Below, piece by piece: positions 1,365 to 18,347 of a stretch of 64,000 nucleotides of DNA. The notes below the pieces were generated by a model. It was not told where the DNA came from and searched no databases. It saw nothing but the letters and a program-made list of their open reading frames with translations. The DNA is from Bradyrhizobium sp. WBAH42 (GTDB lineage Bacteria > Pseudomonadota > Alphaproteobacteria > Rhizobiales > Xanthobacteraceae). The stretch spans positions 4,473,001-4,537,000 of the forward strand of contig NZ_CP036533.1 in NCBI RefSeq assembly GCF_024585265.1, in the 5' to 3' direction. Position numbers and translations under genes: made by a program. Within the stretch, counting starts at the first letter, position 1; every line of letters begins with the position of its first letter.

Positions 1365-2333
1365 ATGCAGCCCGAACCGATCCTCGATCTCGCCCATCTC
1401 GGCCACATGGAGCTGCTGACGCCGAAGCCGGACGAGAGCCTGAAATTCTTCGTCGATGTGATGGGCATGACGGTCAGCGGACAGAAGGGTGAGTCGGTCT
1501 ATTTGCGCGGCTGGGACGATTACGAGCGCTATTCGCTCAAGCTCACGGCGGCGAAGACCTCGGGCATGGGCCACATGGCGCTGCGTGCGCGCAGCCAGCA
1601 GGCGCTGGAGCGGCGCGTCGCCGCGCTGAAGGGATCCGGCTTCGACATCGGCTGGAGCGACGGCGACATGGGGCAGGGGCCGACGTTCCGCTGCCGCGAT
1701 CCCGATGGCCATATCGTCGAGCTCTATTACGAGACCGAATGGTATCAGGCGCCGCCCGAACTCAAGCCTGCGCTGAAGAACCAGGCACAGCGCTTTCCCG
1801 CTCGCGGCGTCAATGTCCGCCGCCTCGACCATCTCAACTGCCTTGCCGTCGACATCAAGGCCAACCGCGAGTTCTTCGAGACCTATCTCGGCTGCCGCCT
1901 CACCGAGCAGATCGTGCTCAACAACGGCCGTGAGGCCGCGATGTGGCTGACGATGTCAAACAAGAGCTACGATTTCGCCTATTCGCTCGATCATTCGGGC
2001 GTGCCGGGCCGCTTCCACCACGTCACCTACGCCCTCGACAGTCGCGAGGAGATTCTGCGCGCCGCCGACATTTTTCTCGAGAACGGCATTCACATCGAGA
2101 CCGGGCCGCACAAGCACGCGATCCAGCAGACCTTCTTCCTCTATGTCTACGAGCCCGGCGGCAACCGCGTCGAAGTCGCCAATGCCGGCGCGCGCCTTAT
2201 CCTGGCGCCCGACTGGAAGCCGATCGTGTGGACCGAGGAGGAGCGCAAGAAGGGCCAGGCCTGGGGATTGAAGACGATCGAGTCCTTTCACACCCACGGC
2301 ACGCCGCCGGTGGAGGTGACGAAGCACGCCTAA
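1365..2333 (+). CDS. Type I extradiol (VOC) ring-cleavage dioxygenase
   Basis: The 322-residue protein has two vicinal-oxygen-chelate (glyoxalase) modules, the layout of catechol 2,3-dioxygenase/BphC-type enzymes that open catecholic rings with Fe(II) and O2. The 2-His-1-carboxylate set is visible in the C-terminal half: His156 (LDHLN), His219 (FHHVT) and Glu270 (NRVEV). The start at 1365 has a strong AGGAGGA ribosome site six bases upstream; an upstream in-frame ATG at 1347 lacks one. It overlaps the converging Mo-hydroxylase gene by four bases. Its operator matches the one at the tetR gene at 25024, tying it to the 25.8-29.9 kb pathway. The exact substrate is unknown; a dihydroxylated aromatic acid is the best guess. 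Confidence 0.8.
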   Translation: MQPEPILDLAHLGHMELLTPKPDESLKFFVDVMGMTVSGQKGESVYLRGWDDYERYSLKLTAAKTSGMGHMALRARSQQALERRVAALKGSGFDIGWSDGDMGQGPTFRCRDPDGHIVELYYETEWYQAPPELKPALKNQAQRFPARGVNVRRLDHLNCLAVDIKANREFFETYLGCRLTEQIVLNNGREAAMWLTMSNKSYDFAYSLDHSGVPGRFHHVTYALDSREEILRAADIFLENGIHIETGPHKHAIQQTFFLYVYEPGGNRVEVANAGARLILAPDWKPIVWTEEERKKGQAWGLKTIESFHTHGTPPVEVTKHA

Positions 2334-5300
2334 TTGGCGAAGGCGCGCACCCTTGCAACCGTCTCGCGCACGCCAGTCCAGGCCGGCTTGTCCGGCGCGA
2401 ACTGCCGGCGCAGGAAGCTGACGAGCTCCTCGATCTGGGTGTCGCTCATGCTGTTCCTGAACGCGGGCATGTAGCCGAGATCGCTCGAGACGGGCTCCGC
2501 GATGCCGTGCAGGATGACCTGTATGAGATTGTCCGACGTGGCGCTGTGCAGGTTGCTGTTGAGCGCGAGCGAAGGCCTAGTGCCGAACAGCGGCAGGCCG
2601 CCGACCTCGTGGCAGACGGCGCAGGCGCCTTGATAGAGGCGCGCGCCGGCGGAGGAGGCGACGGTCACTTGCGTTGCATTTTCGAGCTTGGCGGCCAGCG
2701 CATCCTGCGCCTGGTGGTCGACCGCGGTGTCATTGAACGAGTTGAGATAGACCGCCATCGCACGGATGTCCTGGTCGGGCAGCGCCTTGAGGTCCCGGAC
2801 GATCGGTGCCATCGGGCCGGCGGCGACGCCGTGGTAACGCGAATGGCCGGTGCGCAAATAGGCGTACAGCTCATTCTCGCTCCACGGGATCGGCGCGTGC
2901 GAGAGCGAGGTCAGCGCCGGCGCTTCCCAGCCCTCGGCGAAGCCGCCGGCGAGATAGGCGTTGCGTTGCTCGGCGCCGAGCGCGTTGCGCGGCGAATGGC
3001 AGGCGCTGCAATGGCCGAGGCCCTCGACCAGATAAGCACCGCGATTCCAAGCCTCGGACTTTGAGGGGTCGGGCTTGAAGTCGGGCGTTCGGTGGAACAG
3101 CGCATTCCAGCCCGCCAGCAGCGGGCGGAGATTGAACGGGAAGGCCAGCGTGTTGGCCGGCGTCGTCGCGCGCACCGCAGGTTGCGCCATCAGGTAAGCG
3201 TAGAGCGCCTGCAGATCGGAATCGCTGGTCTTTGCAAAATGCGTGTAGGGGAAGGCGGGATAGAGCTGGCGTCCGTCGCGATGCAGGCCATCGCGCATGG
3301 CGCGCTCGAATGCGGGGTAGGACCAGGCACCGATCCCGGTCTCGACGTCGGGCGTGATGTTGGTCGCGTAGATCGTGCCGAACGGTGTTTCCAAGGCGCG
3401 ACCGCCGGCATTTGCTGCGCCGCCGATCTCGGTGTGGCATTCCGCGCAATTGCCGAGCGCGGCAAGCTGCTCTCCGCGCGCGATCGTTGCCGCTGAATAG
3501 ACCGACGGATCGGGGCGCGCGATGGGTGCAATCGCGCGGCCGGGAAGAAGCGCCGCGCCGATGCCGATCGCGGCGGTGCAGACGGCTGCAATCGTTGCGA
3601 AGATGCCGGCGCGCCTGGCGAACGGATTTTCCCAGATACGAGACGGAGGCGAGGCTGCGGGCGGGGGCAGGGACTGCGGCGTCGCCGGTGCTTCGCCGTG
3701 CAATCCCTTGAGGATTCGCTCAGGCGTGAACGGCGGCTCGCGAAAGCGCACGCCGGTGGCATCGAAGATGGCGTTCGCGATCGCGGCTGCGCTCGGCACC
3801 GAGGCGGACTCGCCGACGCCGAGCGGCGGCTGATCCTGCCGCGGCAGCATCAGCACGTCGATCTTGGGAACGTCGGGGAAGGGGATGATCGGATACGCGC
3901 CCCATTCACGCGCGGCCACCGCACCGCGCTCGAACGACACCTCTTCCATCAGCGCGCGGCTGGTGGATTGGATGACGTTGCCCTGGATTTGGTGGCGCAC
4001 GCCGTCCGGGTTGATCATCAACCCGGAGTCCTGCCCCGCGACGACGCGTGTCACGCTGACGTCGCCGGTCGTCTTGTTCACCGCGACGTCGGCAACCCAC
4101 GCCGACCACGCCGCGCCATAGCCCGGAAACTTGCTGTGGACGTAGAGCGCATACGCAAAGCCGCGGCCATGCACGACCTCACCGTCCTTGTCCTCGCGGA
4201 CCGGCCGCGGCATCCAGCCCGCGCGCTCGGCGACCGCATTGACCAGATCGACCGCGCGCGGGTCCTTCAGATAGCGCAGGCGATATTCGATGGGATCGAC
4301 GCCGGCTTCGGTTGCGGCCTCGTCGATATAGGATTCATGCGCAAAAGTGTTCGGCAGGGCCGAGACGCCGCGAAACCAGGAGGCACGCACGATCGGCGGC
4401 GTGTCGTGGGCGACGACGCGCATGTGCTCGTAATCGTAGGGCGGGATCGCGGTGCGGTCGCCCATCTGGAGCACCGCAGGTTCGGGCGAAAGGCGGCCGG
4501 TCAGCAGCAGCGCCAGCGTCGGCGCGGCATTCGAGGGATAGCGCGTAGCAAGGTCGTACCCGGCAATGCCGCCGTCAGCGTTGAGGCCACCATTGACGTC
4601 GATTAGCTGGGCAGTCCCCTTGGGCTCCCAGGCATGCTCCTGCTCGCGCGTCAGCTGGACGCGGACGGGACGGCCGACGGCGCGCGACAGCAGCAGCGCA
4701 TCGGCGGTGACATCGTCGGCGCAGTTGCGGCCGTAGCAGCCGGCGGCCTCCAGCCGGATCACCTCGATCTCGCTCTCGGGGCGCTCGATCAGCAGCGCCA
4801 GATCGCTGCGCAGCACGTGCGGGTTCTGCGTGCCCGACCAGACGCGGATATTGCCGTCCTGGAAATCGGCAACCGCGCACGACGGGCCGATCGAGGCGTG
4901 CATCTGATACGGCCAGACGTAAGTGCGCTGCATCGGCTTGGCCGCGCCCGCAATTGCCTTGTCGACCTCGCCCTTGTCGATCAGCGTGCGCGGCGTCGAC
5001 GGATTGGCGCGCAGCGCGGTCTCGACATCGGCAAGATCGGTGAGGGAGGGCGTCGGCTTCCAGCTCAGCTTGAGCTGTTCGGCGGCGCGAATCGCATTCT
5101 CCTCGCGCTCGGCAACGACACCGACGAAATCGCCGATGTGGACGACGGCGACGATGCCGGGAATGTCGCGCACCGAGGATTCGTCGACCGCGAGCAGGCT
5201 GGTGCCGACGAACGGGCCGGCATCGACACCGGCATAGGGCGGGCGCACCACGCGGCCATGCAGCATGCCCGGTACGCGGATGTCATGGACGAAGGTCAAT

Positions 5301-5857
5301 TCGCCCGTGGCCTTGGCTGGCACGTCGACACGCGGGACGGAGTGGCCGACGATGGCGTAATCGCCGACAGATTTCACGGCGACGTCGTCTTCGAGCTCGA
5401 GCCGGATCTCTTCGCCGGCGATCAGCTCGCCATAGCTGACGCTGCGGTTGTCATGTCCGCGCACGAGGCCGTCCTCGATCTCGAGATCGGCGGCCGGCAG
5501 TTCCAGCCGTTCGGCCGCGCGTGCGATCAAGAAGTGCCTCGCCTGCGCTGCGGCCTTGCGCAGGGGAACGGCGGTGATCTGGATGGTCTCGCTCGCGATC
5601 GTCGCGCCCTGGTTCGGTACCACGGCCGTGTCGCCGAGCACGACGACGACGCGCGCAAAGGACACGTCGAGCTCTTCGGCGACGATCTGGCCCAGCGCAG
5701 TGCGGATGCCGGTGCCGAGATCGACATGGCCGTTATAGGCCGTGACCGAACCGTCCGCGGTGATGCGGACGAAGGTCTCGGATGTGACCTCGTCCACGCT
5801 GCGGGCGACGATGAGCGAACCTGCGCGCTCAGCTCCGTTCGAAACATAGGAGGCCAT
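2330..5857 (-). CDS. Nicotinate dehydrogenase-like molybdopterin subunit fused to three cytochromes c
   Basis: The 1175-residue protein joins a xanthine-oxidase-family molybdopterin-binding subunit (about residues 1-720) to one hydrophobic anchor (about 750-775) and three c-type heme sites: CAECH near 804, CSACH near 950 and CAVCH near 1079. This is the architecture of NicB of Pseudomonas putida and of isoquinoline oxidoreductases, which pass electrons from the Mo site to the respiratory chain instead of to FAD/NAD. The start ATG at 5857 overlaps the TGA of the small subunit by one base (TGATG). No FAD subunit is nearby, consistent with cytochrome-linked electron flow. Nicotinate 6-hydroxylation is inferred from the neighbouring 6-hydroxynicotinate reductase and enamidase; another N-heterocycle is possible. 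Confidence 0.85.
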   Translation of the reverse strand: MASYVSNGAERAGSLIVARSVDEVTSETFVRITADGSVTAYNGHVDLGTGIRTALGQIVAEELDVSFARVVVVLGDTAVVPNQGATIASETIQITAVPLRKAAAQARHFLIARAAERLELPAADLEIEDGLVRGHDNRSVSYGELIAGEEIRLELEDDVAVKSVGDYAIVGHSVPRVDVPAKATGELTFVHDIRVPGMLHGRVVRPPYAGVDAGPFVGTSLLAVDESSVRDIPGIVAVVHIGDFVGVVAEREENAIRAAEQLKLSWKPTPSLTDLADVETALRANPSTPRTLIDKGEVDKAIAGAAKPMQRTYVWPYQMHASIGPSCAVADFQDGNIRVWSGTQNPHVLRSDLALLIERPESEIEVIRLEAAGCYGRNCADDVTADALLLSRAVGRPVRVQLTREQEHAWEPKGTAQLIDVNGGLNADGGIAGYDLATRYPSNAAPTLALLLTGRLSPEPAVLQMGDRTAIPPYDYEHMRVVAHDTPPIVRASWFRGVSALPNTFAHESYIDEAATEAGVDPIEYRLRYLKDPRAVDLVNAVAERAGWMPRPVREDKDGEVVHGRGFAYALYVHSKFPGYGAAWSAWVADVAVNKTTGDVSVTRVVAGQDSGLMINPDGVRHQIQGNVIQSTSRALMEEVSFERGAVAAREWGAYPIIPFPDVPKIDVLMLPRQDQPPLGVGESASVPSAAAIANAIFDATGVRFREPPFTPERILKGLHGEAPATPQSLPPPAASPPSRIWENPFARRAGIFATIAAVCTAAIGIGAALLPGRAIAPIARPDPSVYSAATIARGEQLAALGNCAECHTEIGGAANAGGRALETPFGTIYATNITPDVETGIGAWSYPAFERAMRDGLHRDGRQLYPAFPYTHFAKTSDSDLQALYAYLMAQPAVRATTPANTLAFPFNLRPLLAGWNALFHRTPDFKPDPSKSEAWNRGAYLVEGLGHCSACHSPRNALGAEQRNAYLAGGFAEGWEAPALTSLSHAPIPWSENELYAYLRTGHSRYHGVAAGPMAPIVRDLKALPDQDIRAMAVYLNSFNDTAVDHQAQDALAAKLENATQVTVASSAGARLYQGACAVCHEVGGLPLFGTRPSLALNSNLHSATSDNLIQVILHGIAEPVSSDLGYMPAFRNSMSDTQIEELVSFLRRQFAPDKPAWTGVRETVARVRAFAN

Positions 5858-6339
5858 CAATCTGCGGCCTCGGTGAGCTGGCTAGAGGCGCGCATCACCG
5901 CGCGGAGGATCTCGACATGCGTGCCGCAGCGGCAAAGATTGTAGCGCAGCGCCGCCAGCGCCTCCTGCTCGGTCGGCCGCGGATTAATCGCGAGCAGCGC
6001 CTTGGTGGTCATGATCATGCCGTTGAGACAATAGCCGCATTGTGCGGCCTGCTCGTCGATGAAGGCCTGCTGCACGACGTCGGGCTTGTCGCTTGTGCCG
6101 AGGCCTTCGAGCGTCACGATGTCGCGGCCGGCGCAGCCGGTCACCGGAATCACGCAGGAGCGTGCCGCCAGTCCGTCGATCAGGACAGTACAGGTGCCGC
6201 ATTCCCCCAAGCCGCAGCCGTATTTCGGGCCGTTCAGCGCGAGCTCATTGCGCAGCACATAGAGCAGCGGCGTGTCCCGCGCTGCCGTGACCTCGTGGAT
6301 CCTGCCGTTCACGGTGAGGCGGATCGGTGTCTGCGTCAT
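5857..6339 (-). CDS. [2Fe-2S] small subunit of the molybdenum hydroxylase (NicA-like)
   Basis: The 160-residue protein is the usual length for the iron-sulfur subunit of xanthine-oxidase-family enzymes. The N-terminal plant-ferredoxin cluster is seen as CGLGECGTC plus a later Cys, and the second cluster as CGYC ... CRCG. It shuttles electrons from the molybdopterin domain to the heme domains of the fused large subunit encoded immediately downstream. ATG 6339 was chosen because the conserved family N-terminus (TVNG) begins here; the longer upstream reading through 6651 would run across the promoter region. A palindrome at 6420-6435 lies about 80 bases upstream and probably controls the pair. 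Confidence 0.88.
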   Translation of the reverse strand: MTQTPIRLTVNGRIHEVTAARDTPLLYVLRNELALNGPKYGCGLGECGTCTVLIDGLAARSCVIPVTGCAGRDIVTLEGLGTSDKPDVVQQAFIDEQAAQCGYCLNGMIMTTKALLAINPRPTEQEALAALRYNLCRCGTHVEILRAVMRASSQLTEAAD

Positions 6340-6419
6340 CCTCGTTCCCAAGCCCAAGACAAAGCCAAGAGACAAACCCAAAATCATGCGATCGCGAAAA
6401 TTCGACGTCGCGACGATAC

Positions 6420-6543: not shown

Positions 6544-6591
6544 TTGACAGCCCCGGGGCACCGCGCGCAACATCGTTCGTATACGAATGAT
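6544..6591 (+). promoter_or_regulatory. Promoter and operator of the 6-hydroxynicotinate reductase operon
   Basis: TTGACA at 6544-6549 is followed after 18 bases by CAACAT (6568-6573). Directly overlapping is the inverted repeat ATCGTTCGTATACGAATGAT at 6572-6591, with one mismatch between arms. The same order (-35, -10, palindrome starting at the -10) occurs at 17466-17508 for the ferredoxin reductase gene. This suggests one repressor for both; the MarR protein at 14383 is the best local candidate. Confidence 0.6.
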
Positions 6592-6598
6592 AACTGCG

Positions 6599-8074
6599 AT
6601 GTCCGCCGGCTCCGACATGGTGACAGAAACGACGAGCGCCGTCATCGACAAGATCCGCTGCGATGCTTGTCCGGTGATGTGCTACATCAAGCCGGGCGCG
6701 GCGGGGGCCTGCGATCGCTATGCCAATCACGACGGCAAGCTCGTCCGCGTCGATCCGCACGTCATCCTGGAGCGCACCGTCTCGCACGGCGGCAAGCTCG
6801 TCCCGTTCAGCCGCACCGAGGACTGGGACGGCAAGATCGTCCATGAGCCCTCGACTTTCGTGACGGCGATCGGCGCAGGCACGACCTATCCCGACTACAA
6901 GCCGGCGCCGTTCATCGTTTCGGCAGAGGTCGACGGCGTCGACATGGTGACCGTCGTCACGGAGGGCATCTTCTCCTATTGCGGCATCAAGGTGAAGATC
7001 GACACCGACCGCTATCTCGGCCCGGAGACTGCAACCGTGCGCGCGCAGGGCGAGGCGGTCGGCCATGTCACCACCAGCGAATACGGCTCGCAGATGCTGT
7101 CGCTCGGCGGCGTGCATCATCTCACCGGCGGCTCCAAGAAGGAGGGCCGGGTCACCTGCGACACGCTGATGGACCTCGCCAATTGCAAGGCGGTGGAGCT
7201 GACCATCGACGGCGGCGCCACCGTGGTGGTGCAGGCCGGCCAGCCGCCGATCGTCAACGGCGTGAAGGAAGAGCGCATGCGCGTCGGCTGCGGCTCGGCG
7301 ACGATCGGCATGTTCGCCAAGCAATGGCACGGCAAGGTGGACGAGGTCGTCGTGGTCGACGACCACATCACCGGCGTGCTCTCGGAGCACCAGGCCGGCA
7401 AGCTGCTCGACATCGCCGACACCGGCATCAAGATGAAGGGCCGCCGCTCGACGCCCGGCCGCTATTTCCAGGTGGCCGATCCCGGCACGGGCTGGGGCGG
7501 CACCAACATCTCCGATCCCTTGTCGATCCTGGGCCCGTTCGATGCCAAGGAAGCAAAGCCCGGTTTGACCATGCTGATGGTCTCCACCACCGGCGAGCAT
7601 TCGTCCTATTACGTACTCGACGAGGCCCTGAAGCCGGTCGAGACCGAGATGCCGGCCGACTTGAAGTTCTCGGTCGAGCGGATCCAGGAAAACTGCGAGC
7701 CCGCGCTGTGCACGGTGCTGTTCATGGCAGGCGCGGGCGGCTCGCTGCGCGCCGGCGTCACCGACAACCCGGTGCGGCTGACGCGCTCGGTCAAGGACGC
7801 GCTGACGCGTGTCACCAGCGGCGGTGCGCCGGTCTATGTCTGGCCCGGCGGCGGCATCACCTACATGGTCGATGTGACGCAGATGCCGTCAGGCGCGTTC
7901 GGCTACGTGCCGACACCGGCCCTGGTCGCGCCGATCGAGTTCACGATGAAGCTGTCCGACTATGCCGCGCTCGGCGGGCACATGGATTATGTGAAACCGC
8001 TCTCCGAGGTGCAGAACGGCGACGATGTCCGCCAGTTGCCCTGGCAGAACCCGATTCCAGGGCCCCGCACATGA
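6599..8074 (+). CDS. 6-Hydroxynicotinate reductase homologue (iron-sulfur flavoenzyme)
   Basis: This 491-residue protein matches my recollection of the family annotated as 6-hydroxynicotinate reductase, which in Eubacterium barkeri reduces 6-hydroxynicotinate to 1,4,5,6-tetrahydro-6-oxonicotinate with reduced ferredoxin. A cysteine cluster C-x2-C-x3-C-x9-C lies at the N-terminus (CDACPVMC...C), with further cysteines at SYCG, VTCD, ANCK, VGCG and ENCEPALC that could hold other clusters. The E. barkeri enzyme carries covalently bound flavin, and the next gene is ApbE-like. ATG 6599 is used, but ATG 6617 is equally possible since neither has a clear ribosome site. The stop overlaps the next start (ATGA). 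The enamidase and Fpr genes at 16-18 kb share its operator type. Confidence 0.8.
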   Translation: MSAGSDMVTETTSAVIDKIRCDACPVMCYIKPGAAGACDRYANHDGKLVRVDPHVILERTVSHGGKLVPFSRTEDWDGKIVHEPSTFVTAIGAGTTYPDYKPAPFIVSAEVDGVDMVTVVTEGIFSYCGIKVKIDTDRYLGPETATVRAQGEAVGHVTTSEYGSQMLSLGGVHHLTGGSKKEGRVTCDTLMDLANCKAVELTIDGGATVVVQAGQPPIVNGVKEERMRVGCGSATIGMFAKQWHGKVDEVVVVDDHITGVLSEHQAGKLLDIADTGIKMKGRRSTPGRYFQVADPGTGWGGTNISDPLSILGPFDAKEAKPGLTMLMVSTTGEHSSYYVLDEALKPVETEMPADLKFSVERIQENCEPALCTVLFMAGAGGSLRAGVTDNPVRLTRSVKDALTRVTSGGAPVYVWPGGGITYMVDVTQMPSGAFGYVPTPALVAPIEFTMKLSDYAALGGHMDYVKPLSEVQNGDDVRQLPWQNPIPGPRT

Positions 8075-8967
8075 CCAGGCGCCCGCAAATCGCATTGCTG
8101 TCTGATGGCCGGCGGCTGCATTTGCAGGATGGACCGATCGATCTGATCGTCGAGGCGAGGGGACGTGCGGATGCGGTGCGAGCGGCCTATGAGGCTGCGG
8201 CGCTGCGGTTTACCGGATTGCTCGACGAGCTTTGCGCGGAGCTGCCCGAATTGCGGTCCGCCGCCGGGAGGCGGACGTCGCTAAAGGGCGTCGTCGCGCG
8301 CCGCATGCATGCCGCGGTGGTGCCCTATGCCGCCGATTGCTTCATCACGCCGATGGCGGCCGTGGCCGGTAGCGTCGCGGAGGAAATTCTGGCTGCGATG
8401 CTGCGCGCTGCGACGCTCGATCGGGCTTACGTCAACAATGGCGGCGACATCGCGCTGCATCTCGGCAAGGGCGAGCAATTTTCGGTCGGGCTGATGGATC
8501 GCCCCGACCGCGACGGCGTCATGCGGACGATGCGGATCGATGCGGACGATCCGGTGCGGGGCGTTGCGACCAGCGGCCGGCACGGCCGCAGCTTTTCGCT
8601 CGGGATCGCCGACGCCGTGACAGTGCTGGCGGAGACCGCTTCGCAAGCCGATGCGGCCGCGACCGTGATCGCCAATGCCGTCGATCTTCCCGGACATCCC
8701 GCCATCATCCGCAAGCCTGCGAACGAGCTTCAGCCCGACAGCGATCTGGGCGGACGCCTCGTGACGTGCGATGTCGGCGAGCTGTCTCACCATGAGATCG
8801 CCGCCGCGCTCGAATCTGGCGCAGAATGTGCACGGCATTTATTCGATCGTCGGCTGATCGAGGGTGCCGTGCTGCAGCTTTGTGGTGATATGCTTGTCAT
8901 CGGACCGAAAGATATTGAGCGGCTGGAATCGCGCCCGCGTCAGCTGGAGAACGCGGTTCATGCCTGA
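8071..8967 (+). CDS. UPF0280 protein, ApbE-like putative flavin transferase
   Basis: The 298-residue protein belongs to UPF0280, a family of unproven function within the ApbE-like fold. ApbE signatures are visible: VNNGGDIALHLG corresponds to the ApbE GGD motif, GVATSGRHGRS to its TSG segment, and the stretch AVTVLAETASQADAAAT to the metal-binding A-D-x3-T helix. ApbE enzymes attach FMN from FAD to a Ser/Thr of a partner protein. It is translationally coupled (ATGA overlap) to the 6-hydroxynicotinate reductase gene, whose E. barkeri homologue holds covalent flavin, so a dedicated flavinylation role is the natural inference. No signal peptide is seen, consistent with a cytoplasmic target. Confidence 0.75.
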   Translation: MTRRPQIALLSDGRRLHLQDGPIDLIVEARGRADAVRAAYEAAALRFTGLLDELCAELPELRSAAGRRTSLKGVVARRMHAAVVPYAADCFITPMAAVAGSVAEEILAAMLRAATLDRAYVNNGGDIALHLGKGEQFSVGLMDRPDRDGVMRTMRIDADDPVRGVATSGRHGRSFSLGIADAVTVLAETASQADAAATVIANAVDLPGHPAIIRKPANELQPDSDLGGRLVTCDVGELSHHEIAAALESGAECARHLFDRRLIEGAVLQLCGDMLVIGPKDIERLESRPRQLENAVHA

Positions 8968-8994: not shown

Positions 8995-9579
8995 ATGAGC
9001 GCGATCATCCGCAAGATCGTCACTGTCGTCGAAGAGACGCAGATGGAGATGGGCCGACAGGTATCACCGCCGACCCGGCGTGCTGCGGCGATTGCCGTCA
9101 TCGAGAATCCGTTTGCCGGAAGATACGTCGAGGATCTTTCGCCGCTGATCGCGATCGGCGAGGAGCTGGGCGAGCTCTTGTCGAAACGCGCGGTGGCGGC
9201 GCTCGGCATCGATGGCGCCAAGGCGCACAGCTACGGCAAGGCCGCGGCGGTCGGCGAGAACGGCGAGCTGGAGCATGCCGCCGCGATCCTCCACCCCAAG
9301 ATGGGCGCGCCGGTGCGCAAGGTTCTGGGCAAGGGCGCGGCGCTGATCCCCTCGTCGAAGAAGCGCAGCGGTCCGGGCACGACGCTGGACATCCCGCTCG
9401 GGCACAAGGACGCGGCCTTCGTGCGCAGTCATTTCGACGGTATGGAAGTGCAGATCAACGACGCGCCGCGTGCCAACGAGATCATGGTCGCGGTCGCCGT
9501 CACCGACAGCGGCCGTCCGCTGCCGCGGGTCGGCGGGCTGACGGTTGCGGAGATCAAGGGCGAAGACGGTCTGAGATAG
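8995..9579 (+). CDS. DUF1185 'amino acid synthesis' family protein
   Basis: The 194-residue soluble protein resembles the PF06684 (DUF1185) family, named for amino acid synthesis but without a firmly established reaction. Conserved-looking features include ENPFAGRY near residue 36, GKAAAVGENGELEHAAAILHP near 80, and a C-terminal NDAPRANEIMVAVA. It lies 27 bases after the UPF0280 gene with an AGAGGAAG ribosome site and 32 bases before the binding-protein gene, so it is part of the reductase operon. A role in handling the formylglutarate-type product or a ring intermediate is possible but only inferred from position. Confidence 0.7.
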   Translation: MSAIIRKIVTVVEETQMEMGRQVSPPTRRAAAIAVIENPFAGRYVEDLSPLIAIGEELGELLSKRAVAALGIDGAKAHSYGKAAAVGENGELEHAAAILHPKMGAPVRKVLGKGAALIPSSKKRSGPGTTLDIPLGHKDAAFVRSHFDGMEVQINDAPRANEIMVAVAVTDSGRPLPRVGGLTVAEIKGEDGLR

Positions 9580-9611: not shown

Positions 9612-10814
9612 ATGCGAGCAAGAAATTACTTCGTCGGCGCGGCCTTCGCGCTTCTGGCGAGCGGCATGGCTCATTCGGCCCTGGCGCAGGACATCAAGAT
9701 CGGCGAGATCAACAGCTATTCGCTGCTGCCGGCGTTCACCGAGCCCTATCGCAAGGGCTGGCAGCTTGCGGTCGAGGAAGTCAACGCGGCCGGCGGCATC
9801 AATGGCAAGAAGCTCGTCGTCATCTCCAAGGACGACGGCGGCAAGCCGGCGGACGCGCAGACCGCGGCCAACGAGCTCGTCTCGAGCGAGGGCGTCGCGA
9901 TGCTCGCCGGCACGTTCCTGTCGAACATCGGTCTTGCGGTCTCTGATTTCGCCAACCAGAAGAAGGTGTTCTTCCTCGCGGCCGAGCCGCTCACGGACGC
10001 CATCACCTGGTCCAAGGGCAACAGGTACACCTTCCGCCTGCGCCCCTCCAACTACATGCAGGCTGCGATGCTGGTGGAAGCCGCCAGCAAGCTGCCCGCA
10101 AAACGCTGGGCGACGATTGCGCCGAACTACGAGTACGGCCAGTCGGCGGTCGCGGTGTTCAAGAAGCTGATGTCGGAGAAGCGCCCCGACATCCAGTGGG
10201 TCGACGAGCAATGGCCGCCGCAGGGCAAGATCGACGCCGGCCCGGTGGTGCAGGCGGTTGCCGCGGCAAATCCGGAAGCGATCCTCAACGTGACGTTCGG
10301 CGCGGACCTCGTCAAGCTCGTGCGTGAAGGCAACACGCGTGGCCTGTTTAAGGGGCGCGAGGTGGTCTCCTTCCTGACCGGCGAGCCCGAATATCTCGAC
10401 CCGCTCAAGGACGAGACGCCGGAGGGCTGGATCGTCACCGGCTATCCCTGGTACTCGATCAAGACTCCCGAGCATGATGCGTTCCTGAAGGCGTATCAGG
10501 CCAAGTACAACGACTATCCGCGCCTCGGCTCGATCGTCGGTTACCAGACCATCAAGTCGGCCGCCGCGATTCTGGCGAAGGCCGGCTCGACTGATCCGGA
10601 GAAGCTGATTGCCGCTGCGGAGGGGCTGACGACGCCGTCGCCGTTCGGCGAGATCACCTTCCGCAAGATCGACCACCAGTCGACGCTCGGCGCTTACGTC
10701 GGCAAGACCGCGCTGAAGGACGGCAAGGGCGTGATGGTGGAGTCGTCCTACAAGAAGGGCGCGGACTATCTGCCTGGCGATGCCGAAGTCGAGAAGCTGC
10801 GTCCGAAGGATTGA
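9612..10814 (+). CDS. ABC transporter solute-binding protein, branched-chain amino acid type
   Basis: The 400-residue protein has a Sec signal peptide ending near ALAQD (residue ~26) and a type I periplasmic binding fold (IKIGEINSYSLLPAFTEPYRKGWQLAVEEVNAAGGINGK), typical of LivK-like proteins used for amides, aromatic acids and amino acids. The start at 9612 has a GGAGG ribosome site. It is the first gene of a complete HMGF import system, separated from the permease by a 142-bp palindromic repeat. In this context nicotinate or a related ring acid is the likely ligand, but this is inference. Confidence 0.85.
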   Translation: MRARNYFVGAAFALLASGMAHSALAQDIKIGEINSYSLLPAFTEPYRKGWQLAVEEVNAAGGINGKKLVVISKDDGGKPADAQTAANELVSSEGVAMLAGTFLSNIGLAVSDFANQKKVFFLAAEPLTDAITWSKGNRYTFRLRPSNYMQAAMLVEAASKLPAKRWATIAPNYEYGQSAVAVFKKLMSEKRPDIQWVDEQWPPQGKIDAGPVVQAVAAANPEAILNVTFGADLVKLVREGNTRGLFKGREVVSFLTGEPEYLDPLKDETPEGWIVTGYPWYSIKTPEHDAFLKAYQAKYNDYPRLGSIVGYQTIKSAAAILAKAGSTDPEKLIAAAEGLTTPSPFGEITFRKIDHQSTLGAYVGKTALKDGKGVMVESSYKKGADYLPGDAEVEKLRPKD

Positions 10815-10824
10815 GTTCTGCTGC

Positions 10825-10966
10825 CGTAGGGTGGGTTAGCCCTGCGGACTGCGCGTAGCGCAGACCGCTCGGCGTAACCCACCACTTTCGGTGCCACACG
10901 AGAAAAGGCGGTGGGTTACGCCGAGCAGATGCGCTCTGCGCATCTGCAGGGCTAACCCACCCTACG
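10825..10966. repeat. 142-bp palindromic dispersed repeat inside the transporter operon
   Basis: Outer arms of 21 bases (10825-10845 and 10946-10966) are perfect inverted copies beginning CGTAGGGTGGGTTAGCC. Inner arms around GGCGTAACCCACC form a second stem. The element ends in the same CGTAGGGTGGG motif as the repeat at 14843-14937. In RNA it would fold into a long hairpin between the binding-protein and permease cistrons, which could protect the upstream message and give excess binding protein. Confidence 0.85.
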
Positions 10967-10989
10967 ATTTCAACGAACCCGGACCGCCG

Positions 10990-12879
10990 ATGGCCTTTTA
11001 CGTCGTACAGTTTCTGACCGGTCTCGCCAGCGCGGCGTCGCTGTTCCTGGTGGCATCGGGCCTGTCGATCATCTTCGGCGTGACGCGGATCGTGAATTTC
11101 GCGCATGGCGCCTTCTACATGATCGGCGCCTACATCGCCTTCACGCTGACCGAGCGCCTGTCCGGCGCATTCGGCTTCTGGGGCGGCATCGTGCTGGCCG
11201 CGTTCGCGGTGGCGCTGATCGGCGTCATCGTCGAGATGGTGCTGCTCCGGCGCATCTATCATGCGCCCGAGCTGTTCCAGCTGCTCGCGACCTTCGGTCT
11301 GACCTTGATGGTCGAGGATCTGGTCGTGCTGATCTGGGGGCCTGACGACCTCGTCGGCCGCCGCGCGCCGGGGTTCAAGGGCGCGATCGATTTCTTCGGC
11401 CAGAACATTCCGAGCTACGATCTGTTTCTGATCGTGCTCGGCCCCGTCGTGCTCGGCATTCTCTGGCTGCTGTTCCAGCGCACGCGCTGGGGCGTGCTGG
11501 TGCGCGCGGCGACGCAGGACCGCGACATGGTGGCAGCCCTCGGCGTCAATCAGAAATGGCTGTTCACGAGCGTGTTCGCCGTCGGCGTCTTCCTCGCAGC
11601 GCTCGGCGGCGCGCTTCAGATACCGCGCGATGCCGTGCATCACGCCATGGATCTGCGCATCATCGTCGAGGTGTTCGTCGTGGTCGTGATCGGCGGCCTC
11701 GGCAGCATCGTCGGCGCTTTCGTCGCGGCGGTGCTGGTCTCCGAGCTGAATGCCTTCGGCATCCTGATCTTCCCGAAGATCTCCATCATCCTGGTCTTCC
11801 TGGTGATGGCGGTGGTGCTGATCGTGCGTCCCTGGGGCCTGTTCGGCAAGCCGGAAGCGGCCGCGCGCAAGACGCCGGGCCTCACCGTCAATCCCTGGCG
11901 GCCGCTGACCTCGAGCGAGCGGCTGATGGCGCTTGCGGCGCTCGTGATCGCAGCGATGCTGCCGCTGTTCGCCGGCAATTATCTGCTGACCGTGGGCTCG
12001 GAGATCGCGATCTTCGTGATCTTCGCCGTCAGCCTGCACTTCCTGATGTCGGTCGGCGGCCTCGCCTCGTTCGGTCACGCCGCCTATTTCGGCCTGGGCG
12101 CCTATGGCATCGCCTTTCTCGCCAAGATGGCGGGACTGCCGATGATCGTCTGCCTGCTGCTCGGCCCGCTGCTCGGCTGCATGGGCGCGGCGGTGTTCGG
12201 CTTCTTCGCGGTGCAGCTCTCCGGCGTCTATTTCGCGATGCTGACGCTCGCCTTTGCGCAGATCGTGTGGTCGATCGCGTTCCAGTGGGTGAACGTGACC
12301 GGCGGTGACAACGGCATTCTCGGCCTCTGGCCCTCGAGCTGGGCGGCAAGCCCGTCGCGCTTCTACTGGCTTGCGCTCGGCGTCGCGGCGCTGGTGACCG
12401 TCGCGCTGCGAGCCATGGTGTTCTCGCCGTTCGGCTACGCGCTTCGCGCCACGCGCGACTCAGGCCTGCGCAGCGAAGCCATCGGCATCGATGCCAAGCG
12501 CATCCAGTGGACCGCCTTCGTGATCGCAGGCACGACCGCCGGCATCGGCGGCGCATTGTTCGCCTATCTCAAGGGCAGCGTGTTCCCCGACAATCTCGGC
12601 ATCTCGCTGTCGGTCGACGCGCTGGTCATGGTGCTGCTCGGCGGCGTCGAGACGGTGTCGGGCGCGGTGATCGGCGCCATCGTCTACAAGGCTTTGAACA
12701 TCTGGCTGGTGAGCCAGACCGATCTGTCGAAGCTCGTGCTCGGCGGCTTCATCATGCTGATCGTCGTCGTCTTCCCCAAGGGCATCGTCGGCACGCTTGA
12801 GATGCTGGCGCAGCGCCGGAAGAAAGCATCGCCGCCGGGATCCCCCTTGCTCGCCAAGCCGATCGAGTCTGCCGAATGA
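10990..12879 (+). CDS. Fused LivH-LivM ABC permease
   Basis: The 629-residue protein combines two normally separate permeases. Residues ~1-290 match LivH (GLSIIFGVTRIVNFAHGAFYMIG near the N-terminus) and ~310-615 match LivM (LMSVGGLASFGHAAYFGLGAYG), joined by a short hydrophilic linker around residue 295-315. Multiple hydrophobic segments are evident in each half. It would form the complete transmembrane pore with the LivG and LivF ATPases that follow; its stop overlaps livG by four bases. Only a weak ribosome site is seen at 10990, immediately after the palindromic repeat. Confidence 0.88.
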   Translation: MAFYVVQFLTGLASAASLFLVASGLSIIFGVTRIVNFAHGAFYMIGAYIAFTLTERLSGAFGFWGGIVLAAFAVALIGVIVEMVLLRRIYHAPELFQLLATFGLTLMVEDLVVLIWGPDDLVGRRAPGFKGAIDFFGQNIPSYDLFLIVLGPVVLGILWLLFQRTRWGVLVRAATQDRDMVAALGVNQKWLFTSVFAVGVFLAALGGALQIPRDAVHHAMDLRIIVEVFVVVVIGGLGSIVGAFVAAVLVSELNAFGILIFPKISIILVFLVMAVVLIVRPWGLFGKPEAAARKTPGLTVNPWRPLTSSERLMALAALVIAAMLPLFAGNYLLTVGSEIAIFVIFAVSLHFLMSVGGLASFGHAAYFGLGAYGIAFLAKMAGLPMIVCLLLGPLLGCMGAAVFGFFAVQLSGVYFAMLTLAFAQIVWSIAFQWVNVTGGDNGILGLWPSSWAASPSRFYWLALGVAALVTVALRAMVFSPFGYALRATRDSGLRSEAIGIDAKRIQWTAFVIAGTTAGIGGALFAYLKGSVFPDNLGISLSVDALVMVLLGGVETVSGAVIGAIVYKALNIWLVSQTDLSKLVLGGFIMLIVVVFPKGIVGTLEMLAQRRKKASPPGSPLLAKPIESAE

Positions 12880-13667
12880 GCGTTGCACCCCCACTTCTCG
12901 CGGTCGAAGGCCTGACCAAATCCTATGGCGGCATCCATGCCGTGCGCGGCGTGTCGTTCTCGCTGCGGGCCGGCGAGATCCTGGCGCTGATCGGGCCGAA
13001 CGGGGCGGGAAAAAGCACCTGCTTCGACATGCTCAACGGCCAGAACAAGCCTGATAGCGGGCACGTCCGCCTGCTCGGCGAAGAGATCACGGGCCGGAAG
13101 CCGCGTGAGGTCTGGCGGCTCGGCGTCGGCCGCACGTTCCAGATCACCGCGACCTTCGCCACCATGACCGTGCGCGAGAACGTGCAGGTCGCGCTGATCT
13201 CGCATGGGAAGCAACTGTTCAATCTGTTCGGCTCGGCGCCGAAGTTCGACCGCGCCGAGGCCGGCCGCCTGCTCGAGCTGGTCGGCATGGGCGGTTATGC
13301 GGACCGGCCCTGCGGCGAGCTTGCCTATGGCGATCTCAAGCGACTCGAGCTTGCAGTCGCACTCGCCAACCAGCCCAAACTGCTGCTGATGGACGAGCCG
13401 ACGGCCGGCATGGCACCGCGCGAGCGCGTCGAGTTGATGCGGCTGACCGCGGGCATTGCCCGGGAAAAATCCATCGGCGTGCTCTTCACCGAGCATGACA
13501 TGGACGTGGTGTTCGAGCATGCCGACCGCATCATCGTCCTAAACCGGGGGACGTTGATCGCGGAGGGCTCGCCGGCGGACGTGCGCGGCAATCCCCAGGT
13601 GCAAGCGGTCTATCTCGGCGAGGGCCTTGTCTACGATGCCCGCCACCGCGAGGGGGCATCGACATGA
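12876..13667 (+). CDS. ABC transporter ATPase, LivG type
   Basis: The 263-residue ATPase shows Walker A (GPNGAGKST near residue 43), the Q-loop (GRTFQITATFATMTVREN), a signature region (ELAYGDLKRLELAVAL, a diverged LSGGQ) and Walker B (LLLMDEPTAGM), with the switch His in TEHDMDVV. The degenerate signature motif is common in LivG-like subunits. ATGA overlaps couple it to the fused permease upstream and livF downstream. It energises the importer encoded by 9612-12879. Confidence 0.9.
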   Translation: MSVAPPLLAVEGLTKSYGGIHAVRGVSFSLRAGEILALIGPNGAGKSTCFDMLNGQNKPDSGHVRLLGEEITGRKPREVWRLGVGRTFQITATFATMTVRENVQVALISHGKQLFNLFGSAPKFDRAEAGRLLELVGMGGYADRPCGELAYGDLKRLELAVALANQPKLLLMDEPTAGMAPRERVELMRLTAGIAREKSIGVLFTEHDMDVVFEHADRIIVLNRGTLIAEGSPADVRGNPQVQAVYLGEGLVYDARHREGAST

Positions 13668-14368
13668 AGCTCACGGTGCAAGACCTCAACAGCCATTACG
13701 GTCCGGCGCATATCCTGTTCGACATCGGCTTCGAAGTCGGCGAGGGCGAGGTGGTGGCGCTGTTGGGGCGCAACGGCGCCGGCAAGTCGACGACGTTCCG
13801 CTCGATCGTCGGCCTCGTCGCGCAGCGCTCCGGCCGCATCACGTTCGAGGGCAAGGACGTCTCGTCGAAGCCGACGCACGAGATCGTGCGGGAGGGCCTC
13901 GGCTACGTGCCGGAGGAGCGGCGCATCTTCACGGACCTGACCGTCGAGGAAAACCTCGAAGTCGGCCGCCAGCCGAAGCGTCCGAACGCGCCGCACTGGA
14001 CGCGCGAAAAGCTGTTCGCGCTGTTTCCGAACCTGGGCGAGATGAAGAACCGCCCGGGCGGACGCATGAGCGGCGGCGAGCAGCAGATGCTCACCATCGC
14101 GCGTACGCTGATGGGCAATCCCTCGCTGGTGCTGCTGGACGAGCCGTCGGAGGGCCTGTCGCCGAAGATCGTGGAGCAGATGGTCGATGCCATCCTGACC
14201 ATGAAGAAGGAAGGCGTCAGCATCGTCGTCTCCGAGCAGAATCTGCATTTCGCGCGGCTGATTTCGGATCGCGCCTACATTATCGAGCGCGGCCGGATCT
14301 GCTTCGGCGGCACCATGGCCGAGCTCGACGCGCGCCCGGATATCCGCGACGCGCATCTGTCGTTGTGA
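13664..14368 (+). CDS. ABC transporter ATPase, LivF type
   Basis: The 234-residue ATPase has Walker A (GRNGAGKST), the LivF-typical GLGYVPEERRIFTDLTVEENL segment, a standard signature MSGGEQQML and Walker B VLLDEPSEGLSP, followed by SEQNLHF. It is the second nucleotide-binding subunit of the importer and is coupled by a four-base overlap to livG. A MarR gene starts 14 bases downstream, so regulator and transporter are probably co-transcribed. Confidence 0.92.
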   Translation: MKLTVQDLNSHYGPAHILFDIGFEVGEGEVVALLGRNGAGKSTTFRSIVGLVAQRSGRITFEGKDVSSKPTHEIVREGLGYVPEERRIFTDLTVEENLEVGRQPKRPNAPHWTREKLFALFPNLGEMKNRPGGRMSGGEQQMLTIARTLMGNPSLVLLDEPSEGLSPKIVEQMVDAILTMKKEGVSIVVSEQNLHFARLISDRAYIIERGRICFGGTMAELDARPDIRDAHLSL

Positions 14369-14382
14369 GGGGCGCGCAGCGG

Positions 14383-14838
14383 ATGGCGAGAAGTGTTACG
14401 GCAAAGAAGAGCGTCAAACCGGCGAAACCGCCTTACGTGCTCGACGAACAGGTCGGCTTCATCCTGCGCCAGGTCTGGCAGCGCCACAGCTCGATCTTCA
14501 CCCGCGATATCGGCACCAACCTGACGCCGACGCAATGGGCGGCGCTGTCGAAACTGGCCGAGACCGGGCCGTGCTCGCAGAATCAGCTCGGGCGCCTCAC
14601 GGCGATGGACGTCGCGACCATCAAGGGCGTGATCGATCGTCTCACCGCGCGCGGCCTGACCGAAACGAGCCAGGATCCCGAGGACGGCCGGCGCCTGCTG
14701 GTGAGCCTGACCCGCGCCGGTCAGCAGCTTGCCGAAAAGCTCGCGCCGAATGCGCTGGCGATCACCCGCGAGACGCTGGCGCCGCTCGACGCGAAAGAGC
14801 GCGACACGCTGATGGCGCTGCTGAACAAGCTCAGATGA
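14383..14838 (+). CDS. MarR-family transcriptional regulator
   Basis: The 151-residue protein has the MarR winged helix (LTPTQWAALSKLAETGPCSQNQLGRLTAMDVATIKGVIDRLTARGL) with the wing DPEDGRRLLVSLT. As the last gene of the reductase/transporter operon it is the obvious candidate for the ATTcGTATACGAAT-type sites at 6572 and 17493. P. putida also uses a MarR protein (NicR) for nicotinate genes, sensing 6-hydroxynicotinate; the parallel is suggestive, not proof. The start at 14383 lies 14 bases after livF. Confidence 0.85.
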   Translation: MARSVTAKKSVKPAKPPYVLDEQVGFILRQVWQRHSSIFTRDIGTNLTPTQWAALSKLAETGPCSQNQLGRLTAMDVATIKGVIDRLTARGLTETSQDPEDGRRLLVSLTRAGQQLAEKLAPNALAITRETLAPLDAKERDTLMALLNKLR

Positions 14839-16219: not shown

Positions 16220-17416
16220 TCACTTCGCCACCACCTCCGGCACCTTGCCGGCCGGCGGCGTGTTGCGGCTGCGCTGGGTGCGCACGATGCCGTCGATGAT
16301 GGTCATGCCGATGCCGGGGAGGTCGCCGAGCTGCACGCTCTCCAGGATGTTCTTGCCCGGCGAGTGCTGCGCCTTGTCCATGATGACGAAGTCGGCGGAG
16401 CGGCCGACCTCGATCAGGCCGCAGTCGAGCTGCCGCATCCGGGCGGTGTTGCCGGTGGCAAGGCAGAACGCGATCTCGGCCGGGAGGTCGCCGAGCGAGG
16501 ACAGCATCGAGACCATGCGCAGGATGCCGAGCGGCTGCACGCCGGAGCCGGCGGGCGCGTCGGTGCCGAGGATGACGCGGTGCAGGTCGCCCATCTCGCG
16601 CGCGGTGCGCAGCGTGAACAGGGCCGAGCGCTCGTTGCCGTTGTGCACGAGCTCGAGGCCGCGCTTGCAGCCCTCGCAGATGCAGCGGATCTGGTCGTCG
16701 GGCAGGGCGGTGTGGCCGCCGTTGATGTGGCCGACCACGTCGGTATCGGCCTCCAGCACCACGTCCTTGTCGATCAGGCCGGAGCCGGGGATCGACGGGC
16801 CGCCGGTGTGGATGGTGCTCTGGATGCCGTATTTGCGCGCCCAGCCGACCATCTTGCGCGCGGTCGGGCCGTCCTTGACGCCGCCGAGGCCGACCTCGCC
16901 GAGCAGCTTGACGCCGTTGGCGGCCATCTCCTTGAAGTCTTCTTCCACCATCTCGCATTCGATCACCGGCGCGCCGGCGTGAACCTTCACGCCGCCGGGC
17001 CGCAGGGTCCAGAACGCGCGCTGGGCGAACACGGCCATCGCCTTGAGTCCGACGACGTCGCGGGGCCGGCCGGGCATGTGGACTTCGCCGGCGGAGATCA
17101 TGGTGGTGACGCCGCCGTGGAGGTAGCTGTCGATCCAGTTGATCTGGTTCTGGCGCGGCGTCCAGTCACCGGCGACAGGGTGGACGTGGCTGTCGATCAG
17201 ACCCGGCGCCACCGTGGTGCCGTTGGCGTCGACGATGGTGGTGGCGCCTTCGATGTCGACGTCCTTGAAGCGGCCGATCGCGGTGATCTTGCCGTTCTCG
17301 GCGACGATGGTGTCGCCGTCCAGGATCGGCTTTTCCAAAGCGCCGGACAGGATCAGGCCGATATTGCGGATCACCAGCTTCGAGGGTCCGGTGGCCTGGG
17401 GTGCGTCATGCGCCAT
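16220..17416 (-). CDS. Enamidase-like amidohydrolase (6-oxo-tetrahydronicotinate ring opening)
   Basis: The 398-residue amidohydrolase has the metal motif LIDSHVHP near residue 75, later histidines in HTGGPS and GHINGGH, and the catalytic Asp in LGTDAPAG. It resembles enamidase of E. barkeri, a binuclear-metal enzyme that hydrolyses 1,4,5,6-tetrahydro-6-oxonicotinate to (S)-2-formylglutarate and ammonia. The family link is from memory of the sequence type plus context with the reductase homologue at 6599. It is transcribed away from the fpr gene across an intergenic region bearing the shared operator. 2-Formylglutarate could lose CO2 to give glutarate semialdehyde, but no gene for that step is seen here. 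Confidence 0.8.
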   Translation of the reverse strand: MAHDAPQATGPSKLVIRNIGLILSGALEKPILDGDTIVAENGKITAIGRFKDVDIEGATTIVDANGTTVAPGLIDSHVHPVAGDWTPRQNQINWIDSYLHGGVTTMISAGEVHMPGRPRDVVGLKAMAVFAQRAFWTLRPGGVKVHAGAPVIECEMVEEDFKEMAANGVKLLGEVGLGGVKDGPTARKMVGWARKYGIQSTIHTGGPSIPGSGLIDKDVVLEADTDVVGHINGGHTALPDDQIRCICEGCKRGLELVHNGNERSALFTLRTAREMGDLHRVILGTDAPAGSGVQPLGILRMVSMLSSLGDLPAEIAFCLATGNTARMRQLDCGLIEVGRSADFVIMDKAQHSPGKNILESVQLGDLPGIGMTIIDGIVRTQRSRNTPPAGKVPEVVAK

Positions 17417-17573: not shown

Positions 17574-18347
17574 ATGAGCAATTTCAATCAGGAAAGCGTT
17601 TTGAGCGTCCACCACTGGACCGACACGCTGTTCTCCTTCAAGACCACCCGCAGCCCGACCTTCCGCTTCCGTAACGGCGAATTCACCATGATCGGGCTCA
17701 AGGTCGGCGAGAAGCCGCTGCTGCGGGCCTACAGCGTCGCCAGCGCCAATTACGAGGACACGCTGGAGTTCTTCTCGATCAAGGTGCCTGATGGACCGCT
17801 GACCTCGCGGCTCCAGCATTTGAAGGAAGGCGACGAGATCATCGTCAGCCGCAAGGCCACCGGCACGCTGGTGATCGACAATCTGGAAGAGGGCCGCAAC
17901 CTCTACCTGATCGGTACCGGCACCGGCCTTGCGCCGTTCCTGAGCGTGATCAAGGATCCCGAGACCTACGAGCGGTTCGAGAAGGTGGTGCTTCTGCACG
18001 GCTGCCGGCACGTCAAGGAGCTCGCCTATGGCGAGATGATCACCGAGCACCTGCCGAAGGACGAGCTGCTCGGCGAGTACATCCAAAACCAGCTGATCTA
18101 CTATCCGACCGTGACGCGCGATCCCTTCCGCAACCGCGGCCGCATCACCGACCTCATCACCTCGGGCAAGCTCTTCGCCGACATCGGCCTGCCGGCACTG
18201 GAAGCCGCCCATGATCGCGTCATGATCTGCGGCAGCCCGGCGCTGGTGGCGGACACCCGCGTCCTCTTGGGCGAGCGCGGCTTCGTCGAGGGCAATCACG
18301 GCGAGCCGGCCCAGTTCGTGGTCGAGAAGGCGTTCGCCGAGCGTTAA
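17574..18347 (+). CDS. fpr: Ferredoxin-NADP(+) reductase
   Basis: The 257-residue flavoprotein has the FAD-binding RAYSVAS motif near residue 50, the NADP-binding GTGTGLAPFLS near residue 115, CGSPALV near 222 and the C-terminal VEKAFAER tail typical of bacterial Fpr. It exchanges electrons between NADPH and ferredoxin/flavodoxin. Its operator and its position back-to-back with the enamidase gene suggest it supplies reduced ferredoxin for the 6-hydroxynicotinate reductase. No ferredoxin gene is in the window. A clear GGGAAGG ribosome site precedes the ATG. Confidence 0.9.
   Translation: MSNFNQESVLSVHHWTDTLFSFKTTRSPTFRFRNGEFTMIGLKVGEKPLLRAYSVASANYEDTLEFFSIKVPDGPLTSRLQHLKEGDEIIVSRKATGTLVIDNLEEGRNLYLIGTGTGLAPFLSVIKDPETYERFEKVVLLHGCRHVKELAYGEMITEHLPKDELLGEYIQNQLIYYPTVTRDPFRNRGRITDLITSGKLFADIGLPALEAAHDRVMICGSPALVADTRVLLGERGFVEGNHGEPAQFVVEKAFAER

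Follow-up and report, generated by a model that had tools for sequence, protein, structure and literature searches.

In the genome of Bradyrhizobium sp. WBAH42, we analysed a 64,000-nucleotide stretch (contig NZ_CP036533.1, positions 4,473,001 to 4,537,000; hereafter the window) in which the gene for a UPF0280 protein immediately follows that for a homologue of 6-hydroxynicotinate reductase, here called Hnr. Across the relatives surveyed UPF0280 almost never occurs without Hnr, and it therefore probably equips this reductase, perhaps with flavin. The leading reading, which we hold with about even confidence, is that UPF0280 is a flavin transferase dedicated to Hnr, for which we infer the cofactor, the reaction and the acceptor. 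The initial annotation of the window had made the same proposal, and part of it stood: a predicted ApbE fold, the retained serine and metal motif and the near-exclusive co-occurrence with Hnr, even where the genes are unlinked, all favour it, whereas the acceptor which it named, Thr208 of Hnr, had to be given up.

Each of 398 Pseudomonadota genomes was searched with Hnr and with the NCBIfam profile NF003322. Hnr was found in 32 genomes from 15 genera, and UPF0280 scored above cut-off in the same 32 and in none of the other 366; in all 32 it lay on the same strand as Hnr and no more than about 0.6 kb downstream, with a MarR-like gene between the two in one case (G167). Two further matches below the cut-off, one each in G293 and G373, coincide with genes for canonical ApbE. 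Fisher values for the association were 6e-48 by genome and 3e-23 by genus, both of which are too small given the relatedness of the genomes. Among the genomes listed for genus g6, one carried both genes and three carried neither. As a control, the gene for an AA_synth protein was present in 31 of the 32 Hnr genomes, yet also in 28 of the 366 genomes lacking Hnr.

In a second sample of 327 genomes from the order of the window, which overlaps the first, Hnr matched in 79 genomes and UPF0280 scored above cut-off in 76, with both present in 75. As to the five mismatches, the contig stops 139 bases past the Hnr match in G552 and 78 bases beyond the UPF0280 match in G611, a contig of G609 begins with a fragment of Hnr, G644 has a partial Hnr and a UPF0280 fragment at the start of a different contig, and the match in G628 has 18.8 bits, a chance hit. 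UPF0280 was located less than 1 kb downstream of Hnr in 69 of the 75 genomes and elsewhere in six (G506, G567, G631, G714, G607 and G697), so that the pair is kept without linkage, although general membership of one pathway could also explain this. We inspected the surroundings in four of the six (G506, G631, G607 and G697): UPF0280 of G697 is next to AA_synth, about 8 kb from Hnr; in G506 and G631 Hnr is accompanied by separate dehydrogenase-like genes. A survey of co-occurrence had been suggested with the initial annotation, and within Pseudomonadota its outcome is strongly positive.

The association extends to plasmids: 26 of 72,556 records contain Hnr, and 27, all of those 26 among them, contain UPF0280. 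The extra record, Hydrogenophaga pBPS33-1, has four UPF0280 places. Two of these fall in the 40 kb inspected; ahead of each is what is left of an Hnr C-terminus (E 3e-6), and one comes straight after an annotated IS1071 transposase gene; the plasmid looks like a case of a broken Hnr-UPF0280 pair, not an exception. Repeat units of about 10.8 kb in locus L167 (8984-9109, 19793-19918) contain UPF0280, a MarR gene and a gene with a Rieske domain, with a cut Hnr remnant ahead of each UPF0280 and two annotated IS1071 transposase genes close by. On plasmids of Pleomorphomonas and Neorhizobium (L165 and L166), Hnr, UPF0280 and AA_synth are accompanied by annotated acetophenone carboxylase or N-methylhydantoinase subunit genes, a context which suggests a second ring substrate for Hnr.

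The UPF0280 protein of the window passes the cut-offs of two family profiles, with 430.2 bits against NF003322 (UPF0280/PRK04334; cut-off 290) and 30.7 bits over residues 97-202 against the Pfam ApbE profile PF02424 (gathering cut-off 25.6), below which some relatives score in whole-genome searches. In a predicted structure model, the ApbE fold extends across the whole domain. The sole sequence relative found in the PDB, 2o34, is DVU1097, which agrees with UPF0280 and COG2122 being one family, as we take them to be; so do the matches of NF003322, below its cut-off, to M. acetivorans and M. jannaschii. The ApbE-like motifs pointed out in the initial annotation lie where it had placed them and are kept across 220 sequences as given in Table 1. 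The invariant S168 is, by motif match, the counterpart of the catalytic serine of V. cholerae (Ser241), and the invariant D194 and T198 are the counterparts of the E. coli ApbE metal ligands D280 and T284 (PMC4767422). UPF0280 shares with the flavin adenine dinucleotide (FAD):protein flavin mononucleotide (FMN) transferases ApbE, Ftp and FmnB (PF02424) the whole-domain fold, the ATSG serine, the A-D-x3-T motif and a GGD-type motif. Unlike them, it has GRS in a shortened stretch in which no histidine is conserved (H171 in 187 of 220), its Ser-to-Asp spacing being 26 residues where E. coli Ftp and the ApbE of L168 have 44, and no signal peptide is visible by eye at its N-terminus.

Hnr is 98% identical to a protein which its source names 6-hydroxynicotinate reductase, and the closest named protein relatives of the genome belong to Bradyrhizobium. 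The abstract of Alhapel 2006 reportedly describes covalent flavin in the E. barkeri reductase, the enzyme to which the background on covalent flavin and Fe-S clusters applies. Hnr has no Pfam FMN-binding domain, and its AlphaFold2 model has a predicted local distance difference test score (pLDDT) of 79.3. We assessed conservation in 239 distinct near-full sequences from 286 sources, many of them Bradyrhizobium. The N-terminal cysteines C21-C24-C28-C38 form a likely Fe-S site. The codon of Thr208 is where the initial annotation had placed it, but we rejected this residue as the flavin acceptor, as threonine occurs there in only 146 of the 239 sequences, with another residue in 93 (serine in 66), and L158, at 98% identity, has serine. 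The published ApbE acceptor motif is D-x-x-[ST]-G-A-[ST] (review PMC12052999), and the closest Hnr stretch to it is S382-L-R-[AS]-G-[VA]-T388, with SGAT in L147 and L149. T388 is kept in 236 of the 239 sequences and is the best ApbE-like acceptor candidate, although not a universal one. The block of residues 381-390 has a pLDDT of 65, against 87 and 87 for its neighbours, and in the model this low-confidence conserved segment might be a loop awaiting its ligand. Eleven threonine or serine residues and one histidine, H174, are invariant across all 239 sequences. A near-invariant G-T-T-Y-P-D-Y-K-P stretch at residues 85-103 (window 6851-6907) has a pLDDT below 50, as though it needed a cofactor or partner to become ordered.

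In the mechanism which we propose, UPF0280 of the NF003322 subfamily would be a cytoplasmic maturation enzyme of ApbE fold dedicated to Hnr. It would most likely bind FAD and Mg2+ and transfer FMN onto a threonine or serine of Hnr, and the flavinylated Hnr would then act as a low-potential Fe-S/flavin reductase, converting 6-hydroxynicotinate to 1,4,5,6-tetrahydro-6-oxonicotinate. Any other ApbE-family gene that might take its place is absent from 13 of the 32 Hnr genomes: 11 have no PF02424 match, and in G159 and in the genome of the window (G000; 8.29 Mb, single contig) the UPF0280 gene is the sole match. A cytosolic ApbE-fold protein tied to a single soluble reductase is also seen with the fumarate reductase of Klebsiella and in the ApbE-reductase fusions of trypanosomatids (PMC12052999); Hnr differs in lacking the Pfam FMN-binding domain, and transfer to it is our proposal. 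In the literature found on COG2122 or on 6-hydroxynicotinate reductase, as far as the available portions go, flavin transfer to Hnr is not proposed. Our literature search found no paper naming UPF0280, nor one containing both hydroxynicotin- and ApbE, and the words UPF0280 and COG2122 are absent from the main text of an ApbE survey (PMC8238504).

Several observations weigh against flavin transfer. UPF0280 is without the 18 residues which in ApbE carry the catalytic histidine, a general base on the S-H-x-I hairpin (V. cholerae His257). There is no invariant D-x-x-[ST]-G-A-[ST] site in the 239 sequences of its client Hnr, unlike the clients of ApbE, Ftp and FmnB, and Thr388 is replaced by valine in two sequences and phenylalanine in one, one of these (G331) having a full UPF0280. 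Another ApbE-family gene is present in 19 of the 32 Hnr genomes, and the co-occurrence survey was confined to Pseudomonadota, with E. barkeri outside it. In G506, G631 and G607, UPF0280 is found beside dehydrogenase and AA_synth genes and not beside Hnr. Lastly, published work on COG2122 points toward sulfur chemistry (PMC5764234).

This last point bears on the possibility, which we consider unlikely, that UPF0280 has no flavin role and instead traffics sulfur for Hnr or helps to assemble its persulfide or Fe-S centres, as proposed for MA1715 and DvMF_0044. COG2122 is required for homocysteine formation in D. vulgaris, along with DUF39 and NIL/ferredoxin proteins, its fitness profile correlating with that of DUF39 at r = 0.98 (PMC5764234), and it is needed for growth of M. 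acetivorans at low sulfide, MA1715 being termed a sulfur trafficking protein (PMC5764234, PMC12068725). As the initial annotation stated, no reaction is assigned to UPF0280; for its COG2122 relatives, however, genetic work has been published that gives them a role in making homocysteine and in assimilating sulfide (PMC5764234). A sulfur function would also be in keeping with seven near-invariant cysteines in Hnr and with the missing histidine hairpin. However, Hnr-type UPF0280 has no near-invariant cysteine of its own (the best of five is kept in 194 of 220), while its phosphotransferase metal and serine residues are kept in 220 of 220. DUF39 (PF01837) was found in none of the 32 Hnr genomes, so that UPF0280 does not serve the DUF39 homocysteine route there, nor in any of 58 in a class sample.

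In G506, G631 and G607 Hnr has moved away and UPF0280 has stayed by dehydrogenase and AA_synth genes, which would instead suit a UPF0280 acting on some other pathway component, for instance the molybdenum dehydrogenase or AA_synth, or catalysing a step itself, its link to Hnr being one of shared pathway only. Of 20 loci, 19 have AA_synth close to UPF0280, but in G139 Hnr and UPF0280 occur where AA_synth is absent, AA_synth occurs without UPF0280 in 28 genomes, and for the plasmid loci L165 and L166 the 17 kb inspected contain no annotated dehydrogenase. We regard this explanation as improbable too. Hnr might also attach its flavin by itself, through an 8-alpha linkage to histidine or cysteine, with UPF0280 merely supplying or trimming FAD. 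H174, C128 and C366 are never substituted among the 239 Hnr sequences, and self-catalysed attachment has been described for histidyl and cysteinyl flavins (review PMC12052999); exclusive co-occurrence with an ApbE-fold protein is not readily explained in this way, and we think self-attachment very unlikely.

With the COG2122 proteins, namely DVU1097, DvMF_0044 and MA1715, Hnr-type UPF0280 has in common a core made up of P-x-A-A-V-A-G, NGGD, [TS]S, G-x-S-x-S, ADxxAT and N202, the Desulfovibrio type being the one compared. The partner in Desulfovibrio and methanogens is different, namely DUF39 with NIL/ferredoxin (PMC5764234), and the sequences differ at position 173, which is histidine in 95% of 110 Desulfovibrio-type proteins and arginine in 27 of 27 Hnr-type rows, and in the DSDL segment, which is an addition of the Hnr type. 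A broader and rather doubtful extension is that UPF0280/COG2122 constitutes a second class of flavin transferase without the histidine hairpin, whose clients would be ferredoxin-linked reductases in which the usual fold for binding flavin is lacking: Hnr in the one case and, in Desulfovibrio and methanogens, the DUF39/COG1900 aldehyde sulfurtransferases. If so, the tie to nicotinate and the phenotype in homocysteine synthesis would come down to one reaction. The conserved UPF0280 family has phenotypes in genetic work but an unassigned reaction; Hnr is a partner almost always present with it in two genome samples, and the Hnr pathway offers a simple growth test on nicotinate, which reduces the question to one deletion and one fluorescent gel. 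Were UPF0280 to transfer flavin, ApbE chemistry would reach a class without the hairpin as well as Fe-S ring reductases, and covalent flavin would have to be looked for afresh in the route by which methanogens and Desulfovibrio make homocysteine.

Table 1 Features of the Hnr-UPF0280 locus in window coordinates.
Feature	Position	Strand	Basis or detail
Hnr, 491 aa	6599..8074	+	Open reading frame; alternative in-frame ATG at 6587 gives 495 aa
UPF0280 protein, 298 aa, ApbE superfamily	8071..8967	+	NF003322 and PF02424 profile matches, predicted model
ATGA stop/start overlap of Hnr and UPF0280	8071..8074	+	ATG 8071-8073 overlaps TGA 8072-8074
Hnr C21-C24-C28-C38	6659..6712	+	C21 232/232, C24 231/232, C28 234/235, C38 234/236 aligned sequences
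Hnr Thr208	7220..7222	+	T 146, S 66, A 8, E 5, N 5, K 3, I 2, Q 2, G 1, P 1 of 239
Hnr residues 381-390, loop G-S-L-R-[AS]-G-[VA]-T388-x-N	7739..7768	+	Thr388 codon 7760-7762
UPF0280 NNGGD (122-126)	8434..8448	+	N122, G124, G125, D126 220/220; N123 216/220
UPF0280 ATSG (166-169) and GRS (172-174)	8566..8592	+	Each 220/220
UPF0280 ADAAAT (193-198), A-D-x3-T metal motif	8647..8664	+	A193, D194, T198 220/220
UPF0280 DSDL (223-226), in segment of the Hnr type	8737..8748	+	
AA_synth (PF06684, DUF1185) protein	8995..9579	+	Pfam match
Nicotinate dehydrogenase-like molybdenum subunit fused with cytochrome c domains	2330..5860	-	Profile match
[2Fe-2S] subunit of dehydrogenase	5857..6357	-	Profile match
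ABC transporter (binding protein, permease, two ATPases)	9624..14368	+	Profile matches
MarR-family regulator	14368..14838 (scanned frame region, start unsettled)	+	PF01047, 44.4 bits vs 24.6
Amidohydrolase, candidate enamidase (by family and position)	16220..17416	-	Profile match
Ferredoxin-NADP reductase-like protein (FAD_binding_6 and NAD_binding_1), candidate electron supply	17574..18347	+	Profile match

The coupling of the two genes through ATGA, noted in the initial annotation, is borne out by the reading-frame coordinates, and the same overlap is present in 13 of 25 Hnr-UPF0280 pairs inspected, with start codons picked by heuristic. Judged by family and position, the surrounding genes look like a full cluster for the conversion of nicotinate to formylglutarate, a pathway described previously (PMC3511419, PMC9304392). 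Because the large subunit of the dehydrogenase is fused to cytochrome c domains, nicotinate hydroxylation may feed cytochrome rather than NAD. The nicotinate clusters of E. barkeri and of Azorhizobium/Bradyrhizobium (PMC3511419) contain genes which, by their position, are probably those for UPF0280 and AA_synth, and no function is proposed for them in the available part of that paper. A catechol 2,3-dioxygenase gene adjoins the cluster at 1362-2333 (TIGR03211, 364.7 bits against a cut-off of 320.2), an arrangement seen in L158 only among 20 loci. In the loci L142-L161, seven of the 19 with AA_synth (PF06684/DUF1185) near UPF0280 have two copies of it. The solved AA_synth structures 2qtp and 3byq are listed just as uncharacterized; the family name 'amino acid synthesis' looks misleading, and a catabolic role in the nicotinate pathway seems likely.
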